Positions 33,925 to 34,077 of a stretch of 64,000 nucleotides of DNA are shown here, piece by piece. A program made the translations under genes and the position numbers. Where the stretch lies: the NCBI RefSeq assembly GCF_001422445.1, contig NZ_LMNA01000001.1:914735-978734 (forward strand), in the 5' to 3' direction. The first letter of the stretch is position 1. Each line of letters starts with the position of its first letter. The DNA comes from Pseudorhodoferax sp. Leaf274 (lineage in GTDB: Bacteria; Pseudomonadota; Gammaproteobacteria; Burkholderiales; Burkholderiaceae_C). The notes under the pieces are model-generated. The model was not told the DNA's origin, made no database searches, and saw only the letters and a program-made list of their open reading frames with translations.

Positions 33925-34077
33925 GATTTCACCGGGAAGGGCTGGATGCATGGCATCCGTCCCGACCGCGGTGGCACGGTGACGGTCGAATTGACGCCTT
34001 ACGACCTGTCGCGAGCGTGGAAGAGGTTCCACGCCAATGGGTTGGCAAGGGCAAACAGTTTTAGGAGAGAGTTATGA
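33925..34077 (+). pseudogene. infA: decayed remnant of translation initiation factor IF-1
   Basis: In the 154-bp gap between secY and rpmJ, one frame reads [16 protein letters not shown] and then [14 protein letters not shown], matching the C-terminal half of IF-1 (normally GKMRMHYIR...[16 protein letters not shown]). The N-terminal half, including the start of the OB fold, is gone, and the tail continues into unrelated sequence to a TGA at 34075 that overlaps the rpmJ ATG. infA occupies exactly this place in many betaproteobacteria. An ATG at 33946 would give a 43-residue product, which could not fold as IF-1. A functional copy must lie elsewhere. Confidence 0.8.

Follow-up and report, generated by a model that had tools for sequence, protein, structure and literature searches.

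The gap between secY and rpmJ in the genome of Pseudorhodoferax sp. Leaf274 contains a pseudogene remnant of infA, the gene for IF-1, and a full IF-1 cannot be encoded there. We put the probability at roughly 0.8 that this pseudogene of the operon copy has been partly retained, most likely as an RNA hairpin in the leader of rpmJ. The remnant lies in a window of 64,000 nucleotides, the whole stretch of DNA that was analysed, and all positions below refer to this window. All features described are on the plus strand.

Results

A broken infA gene between secY and rpmJ

The open reading frame of secY (32600..33919; Pfam SecY, E 4.1e-115) is followed after 154 bp by rpmJ, the gene of ribosomal protein L36 (34074..34187; Pfam Ribosomal_L36, E 1.7e-19), and then by rpsM, the gene of ribosomal protein S13 (34208..34573; Pfam Ribosomal_S13, E 5.2e-33). 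The remnant occupies 33931..34035 in the frame of 33922 and has no stop codon of its own. Aligned without gaps to the operon IF-1 of relatives, it is identical at 22 of 35 residues, including all 13 of the core quoted by the first-pass annotation, and the other peptide segment quoted there was found in the same frame. The alignment score was 85, compared with a mean of 23.6 (sd 3.5, maximum 38) for dinucleotide shuffles of both strands, none of which (0/2000) reached the observed score. The aligned part is the C-terminal half, 35 of the approximately 72 residues of IF-1, and the N-terminal half is absent, as the annotation had stated. Its placement of the remnant at 33925-34077 held in that the remnant does lie there, but similarity to IF-1 starts a few bases inside this range, at 33931.

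The same origin was indicated by the DNA. At E <= 0.01, the last 99 bases of the gap had matches in 34 of 149 related genomes; the best one outside the genus reached an E value of 3.9e-12 with 83% identity over 63 nt. The search returned 14 loci from outside the genus, each with an intact operon-type IF-1 ORF. Alignment with the secY-rpmJ regions of relatives, which had been proposed as a check, placed intact infA at the same position in 96 of 191 loci, in agreement with the claim that relatives carry the gene here. No further copy of the remnant was found elsewhere in the source genome. IF-1 was the sole family hit of the gap in Pfam and NCBIfam, below the cut-offs of both PF01176 (15 bits; cut-off 30.2) and TIGR00008 (16.4; cut-off 61.15), and the whole-genome E value was 0.465.

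No sigma-70 promoter or terminator was found in 33700-34300 by a consensus scan, and the Rfam scan of the gap returned no family at the gathering score. The sub-threshold matches of RF00374 (25.7 of 93 bits) and RF02470 (19.3 of 44) in the gap were taken as chance. Alpha_RBS (RF00140) had no match within the gap. A sub-threshold match to it was seen at the start of rpsM (34185-34240; 27.7 of 38 bits, E 0.00037), and similarly weak Alpha_RBS matches occurred in 12 of 13 related loci searched, where no other Rfam family was detected.

IF-1 genes elsewhere in the genome

The annotation had interpreted the remnant as a fossil of gene relocation and had proposed a search for an intact infA elsewhere. 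Three intact IF-1 genes were found in the source genome, none of them of the operon type by sequence. They belong to another sequence type (KMRKHxIRILAGD...LELSPYDLxKGRI), and the remnant matches the operon type. All 80 family genomes examined have at least one IF-1 gene. An intact operon copy, recognised in this count by its place next to rpsM, was present in 27 of them, and 22 of these 27 have at least one further copy; the 53 genomes that lack it all have an IF-1 copy elsewhere. Five family genomes (G034, G036, G256, G286 and G217) have the operon copy only, the reverse of the source genome. Either kind can thus be missing in this sample and never both, with the reservation that draft genomes may hide copies. 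Because a further copy accompanies the intact operon gene in 22 of 27 genomes, redundancy belongs to the intact state, and the operon copy would simply have been lost. The idea of relocation was not borne out by these comparisons, and we suggest that one of two redundant IF-1 genes was probably lost, not moved.

Loss of infA in related genomes

Among the 191 loci, nearly all from Burkholderiales and all with both secY and rpmJ found, 96 had an intact operon infA and 95 did not, intactness being judged by a pattern on the frame plus the alignment score. Its family loci were drawn from the better-scoring matches among those listed (377 of 399 genomes matched), with 27 new loci given there and 80 that were fetched, so that proportions in the sample do not stand for frequencies across the family. 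Lack of rpmJ excluded two of 193 loci (L037 and L051), and some genomes are present twice, for example as L005/L086 and apparently as L024/L169 and L032/L156. One locus (L129, genome G302) was mis-called and is counted among the 95: its secY seems to end early and its 617-bp "gap" still encodes the end of SecY, possibly owing to a frameshift or an assembly error.

Parsimony on a FastTree of SecY and RpsM required 29 changes of state over the 176 rows left after removal of identical ones (90 intact, 86 lost), a rough figure since 63 of 173 inner branches were open. Of the 55 genera sampled, many of them by a single genome, six were mixed (g16, g21, g40, g41, g97 and g125), 20 were all intact and 29 all lost, and the six mixed genera are a safer minimum than the 29 changes. 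The stages of decay found include near-full-length genes interrupted by a stop or a broken frame (L193, L159, L038), genes that are shortened or degenerate (L044, L175, L110), and gaps of less than 90 bp, the smallest being the 18 bp of L073. In 28 of 94 non-intact gaps of at least 30 bp the match to IF-1 was better than in all 200 shuffles, and 19 more were matched or beaten by 1 to 10 of the 200. Loss of the operon infA has recurred in the family, in a striking series of parallel losses. We found no report in the open-licence literature of a loss of infA from this operon in Comamonadaceae.

The remnant in Pseudorhodoferax and the small reading frame

None of the six Pseudorhodoferax genomes in the sample, the source genome included, has an intact infA between secY and rpmJ. 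The nearest named locus is that of Pseudorhodoferax sp. Leaf265, with 98% SecY identity. Five of the six carry the remnant, in gaps of 154, 151, 154, 127 and 125 bp; the sixth (L089) has a gap of 60 bp in which nearly all of the remnant is lost and the rpmJ ribosome binding site is the same. The Shine-Dalgarno region and start of rpmJ (TTTTAGGAGAGAGTTATG, 34059..34076) are identical in all six. Overall, the gap has diverged about as far as the fourfold sites of secY, less so between the close sisters L085 and L090 (0.086 vs 0.125) and more so between the two sub-groups, as in L085 and L086 (0.214 vs 0.124).

A 43-codon ORF (33946..34077) does run across the remnant and overlap the start of rpmJ, as had been described, together with the suggestion that it may serve translational coupling. 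As a gene it was not supported. The ATG at its first codon is present in two of the five remnant genomes (L085 and L088), the frame contains no ATG in L090 and L086, and in L087 it is shifted and meets a stop ahead of rpmJ. The proposed dN/dS check was carried out in the form of pN/pS, which was about 1.3, 0.6 and 0.55 in three pairs of the closest species and gave no clear sign of purifying selection over the frame, with little power from 42-44 codons. No amino-acid change was found in the 11 codons of the conserved core described below in three pairs. The ATGA overlap arises because rpmJ itself begins with ATGA, and needs no selection. As a protein, the remnant seems to drift almost freely, as far as pN/pS over so few codons has the power to indicate.

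A conserved core and a predicted hairpin ahead of rpmJ

The remnant contains a core of 34 nt (33979..34012, encoding 11 residues) that has a single variable base in the alignment of the five species. With 31 variable columns among 99, a 35-column window with at most one variable column was obtained in 1 of 10000 permutations. Third codon positions of the core are nearly as constant as the others, which would point to a constraint on nucleotides rather than on protein, with little power. For the gap together with the start of rpmJ, the predicted folding energy was -64.5 kcal/mol (z -2.31), a value reached by 4 of 200 shuffles. For the last 120 nt, z was -1.94 in the window, and the values of -0.85 to -1.15 in four other members of the genus were unremarkable.

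In the predicted fold the core pairs with the conserved AATGGGTTG to form a long hairpin, the 3' partner of the core being the conserved AATGGGTTGGC at 34036..34046. This helix, the third, never varies and so neither supports nor refutes the pairing. Between its arms lies an apical hairpin, GCGTGGAA-GAGG-TTCCACGC (34015..34034), derived from the codons of ARIVFRA. All eight of its pairs are kept in all five species despite 7 variable positions out of 16, three pairs having changed on both sides. In the lower (second) helix two pairs are broken in two of the five species. Over the whole long hairpin, three two-sided pairs were reached by 8 of 500 shuffles and by none of the slid structures, for five sequences and a stem picked after inspection. 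The covariation term of RNAalifold was -0.12, almost none, again with five sequences. Upstream, a possible 5' hairpin, GGATGC-ATG-GCATCC (33944..33958), was predicted from the codons of RMHYIR; among the three closest species two of its pairs have changed in both arms, and L088 and L090 each have one broken pair.

We simulated neutral change in the apical stem. In runs with at least as many variable positions as observed, all eight pairs were kept in 13 of 25009, with a rate fitted by eye, and the five other settings gave similar or smaller shares. These figures apply to a stem chosen after inspection among the five sequences that exist, and to a model of independent changes, without template switching, that has one transition ratio throughout and branch lengths set to resemble the gap distances. 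We regard the result as an indication that the hairpin may have been retained.

A general excess of structure was not found in gaps without infA (mean z -0.41, n=62, vs -0.98 in the end of secY). Hairpins of at least six Watson-Crick pairs ahead of rpmJ were found in 17 of 96 loci with infA, compared with 7.0 expected from shuffles, and in 21 of 89 without it, compared with 7.1; when the first locus of each genus was taken, the count was 8 of 33, with 2.7 expected. The median locus was unremarkable by this measure. L086 fails it, with four pairs, because its stem needs G-U, and L089 was not unusual (rank 0.145). We also considered the hairpin as an insulator that opens the ribosome binding site of rpmJ, and set this aside because the trend was weak and non-significant (mean z 0.26 in 62 gaps without infA vs 0.13 in 96 with it).

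Origin of the hairpins

In intact infA, the RMHYIR peptide fixes five of the six pairs of one hairpin (87 to 93 of 93 genes), and ARIVFRA largely fixes five of the eight pairs of another (56 to 72 of the 72 genes used, from 91 found in the 96 intact loci). At ARIVFRA there was no clear signal of a hairpin function in these 72 intact genes (p 0.08 and 0.37), and at RMHYIR a weak excess of pairing was seen at the unforced pairs (p 0.02, 93 genes). One position of the ARIVFRA hairpin is paired in 0 of 72 intact genes and in all five remnants. Since the coding sequence forces the palindromes and this position is paired solely in the remnants, the hairpins originated as by-products of coding, the second being completed in Pseudorhodoferax once the protein had been lost. 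The changes on both sides could stem from selection on the RNA or from copying between the arms by template switching.

A second clade, which the tree places close to Acidovorax soli and Delftia acidovorans and which has a separate loss, offers a comparison. All 30 of its rows are without infA, and 19 loci (L092, L098, L100, L102, L106, L108, L128, L115, L117, L139, L164, L182, L120, L131, L147, L093, L094, L097 and L122) share three possible hairpins in the secY-rpmJ gap. The match to IF-1 beat all 200 shuffles in five of these 19, was matched by 1 to 7 of 200 in nine, and was absent in five. In the alignment 25 cells had changed on both sides, compared with a shuffle mean of 9.0 and 0 of 500 shuffles as high, a figure that relatedness can inflate. 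Neither the number of pairs changed on both sides (4, reached in 177 of 500 shuffles) nor that of further pair types (19, reached in 191 of 500) was unusual. Another infA-derived stretch may have gone the same way here, which would be a parallel and not a proof.

The first hairpin of this clade encloses a -10-like TATAGT, TACAAT or TAAAAT, and its outer pairs have changed on both sides. The -10-like TATAGT was considered as a promoter, and a -35 element was not seen by eye. In three loci with intact infA (L150, L151 and L168), an inverted repeat, TTCCGCGC...GTCGGAAC, follows the infA stop ahead of the rpmJ Shine-Dalgarno site and resembles the last hairpin of the clade without infA.

Discussion

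The events that we envisage start from an ancestor that would have had two kinds of IF-1 gene, as suggested by the relatives that keep both. The operon copy was then lost in the lineage of the source genome, leaving neither the N-terminal half nor the stop codon, and the three intact genes of the other type, whose presence was observed, may be sufficient to supply IF-1. As RNA, the remnant is predicted to form a long hairpin immediately ahead of the Shine-Dalgarno site of rpmJ, and the comparison of five genomes indicates that this hairpin was retained. The hairpin would form part of the rpmJ leader and might affect the expression of this gene. A dead gene is a plausible source of such a leader; structural tests across the family were negative or weak.

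That the similarity to IF-1 is due to chance, or that an intact gene was misread in sequencing, is scarcely credible. The scores against the curated models were sub-threshold, but not one of the 2000 shuffles reached the score, the position is syntenic, the DNA matches intact infA down to E 3.9e-12, and related remnants occur in four other genomes; the five-genome alignment already contradicts this explanation. A relocation of the operon infA itself, leaving a fossil behind, is very improbable; intact IF-1 genes do exist elsewhere in the genome, but they are of the other sequence type, and 22 of the 27 genomes with an intact operon gene also hold a further copy. We consider it very improbable, too, that ribosomes translate the 43-codon ORF and that the ATGA overlap couples its translation to that of rpmJ. 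An open frame does overlap the rpmJ start in the window, and the 11 core codons lack amino-acid changes in three pairs; however, the ATG is shared by two of five genomes, the frame of L087 is broken by a stop, pN/pS ranges from about 0.55 to 1.3, and the sixth member of the genus, with its 60-bp gap, has no such ORF.

The remnant may be plain neutral junk, with the part next to rpmJ lingering since any deletion extending into the ribosome binding site is eliminated, the hairpins being left-overs of coding and the two-sided changes the product of template switching. This has close to an even chance in our estimate: the gap diverges about as much as secY fourfold sites, pN is close to pS, intact infA already forces five of the six RMHYIR pairs and most of the ARIVFRA pairs, gaps without infA have no general structure excess, and L089 has lost nearly all of the remnant. 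However, the five species differ at a single base of the 34-nt core, the third-base pairs left free by coding are present in all five as well, and independent neutral change almost never kept all pairs in simulations without template switching. More tentatively, a dying copy of an essential gene may have been reused as RNA, with the palindromes of RMHYIR and ARIVFRA kept, the second completed, and the whole now acting as a leader hairpin for rpmJ and the genes that follow, for which the second clade would be a parallel. The preferred reading, a pseudogene of the operon infA partly retained ahead of rpmJ, is that of an ordinary pseudogene remnant in an unusual place, and a role of its hairpin as a leader for rpmJ is a hint, as yet unproven.

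Gene loss can be followed here at many stages inside a highly conserved bacterial cluster and within one family. This provides a natural series in which to ask what makes an essential gene dispensable once there is a second copy. If the part concerning the hairpin is true, a coding sequence has turned into a leader, and the origin of leaders of ribosomal protein genes becomes testable by comparison.

Among the known systems, the RNA of the alpha operon ribosome binding site (RF00140) acts on the translation of ribosomal proteins. It is likewise a structured RNA of the same gene cluster, but its weak match lies at the start of rpsM and not in the infA remnant. In the account given in PMC3087516, infA-L36-S13-S11-S4-rpoA-L17 is the consensus cluster of many genomes, and infA is missing nearby mainly in Gammaproteobacteria and Magnetococcus. 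The order secY, rpmJ, rpsM without infA is common to those alpha/spc clusters, as described there, and to our window; unlike in them, the loss in our window is recent enough for a readable remnant, and close relatives keep the gene. In flowering plants, infA has been lost repeatedly and in parallel from chloroplast genomes (Millen et al. 2001, as cited in PMC4918201). As far as that citation describes it, the plant case is similar to ours in the repeated loss from a conserved cluster of ribosomal protein genes, with another copy supplying the protein. The plant survivor, however, is a nuclear gene; in Pseudorhodoferax a second IF-1 gene, bacterial and of another sequence type, survives within the same genome, and what remains of the operon infA may act as a leader.
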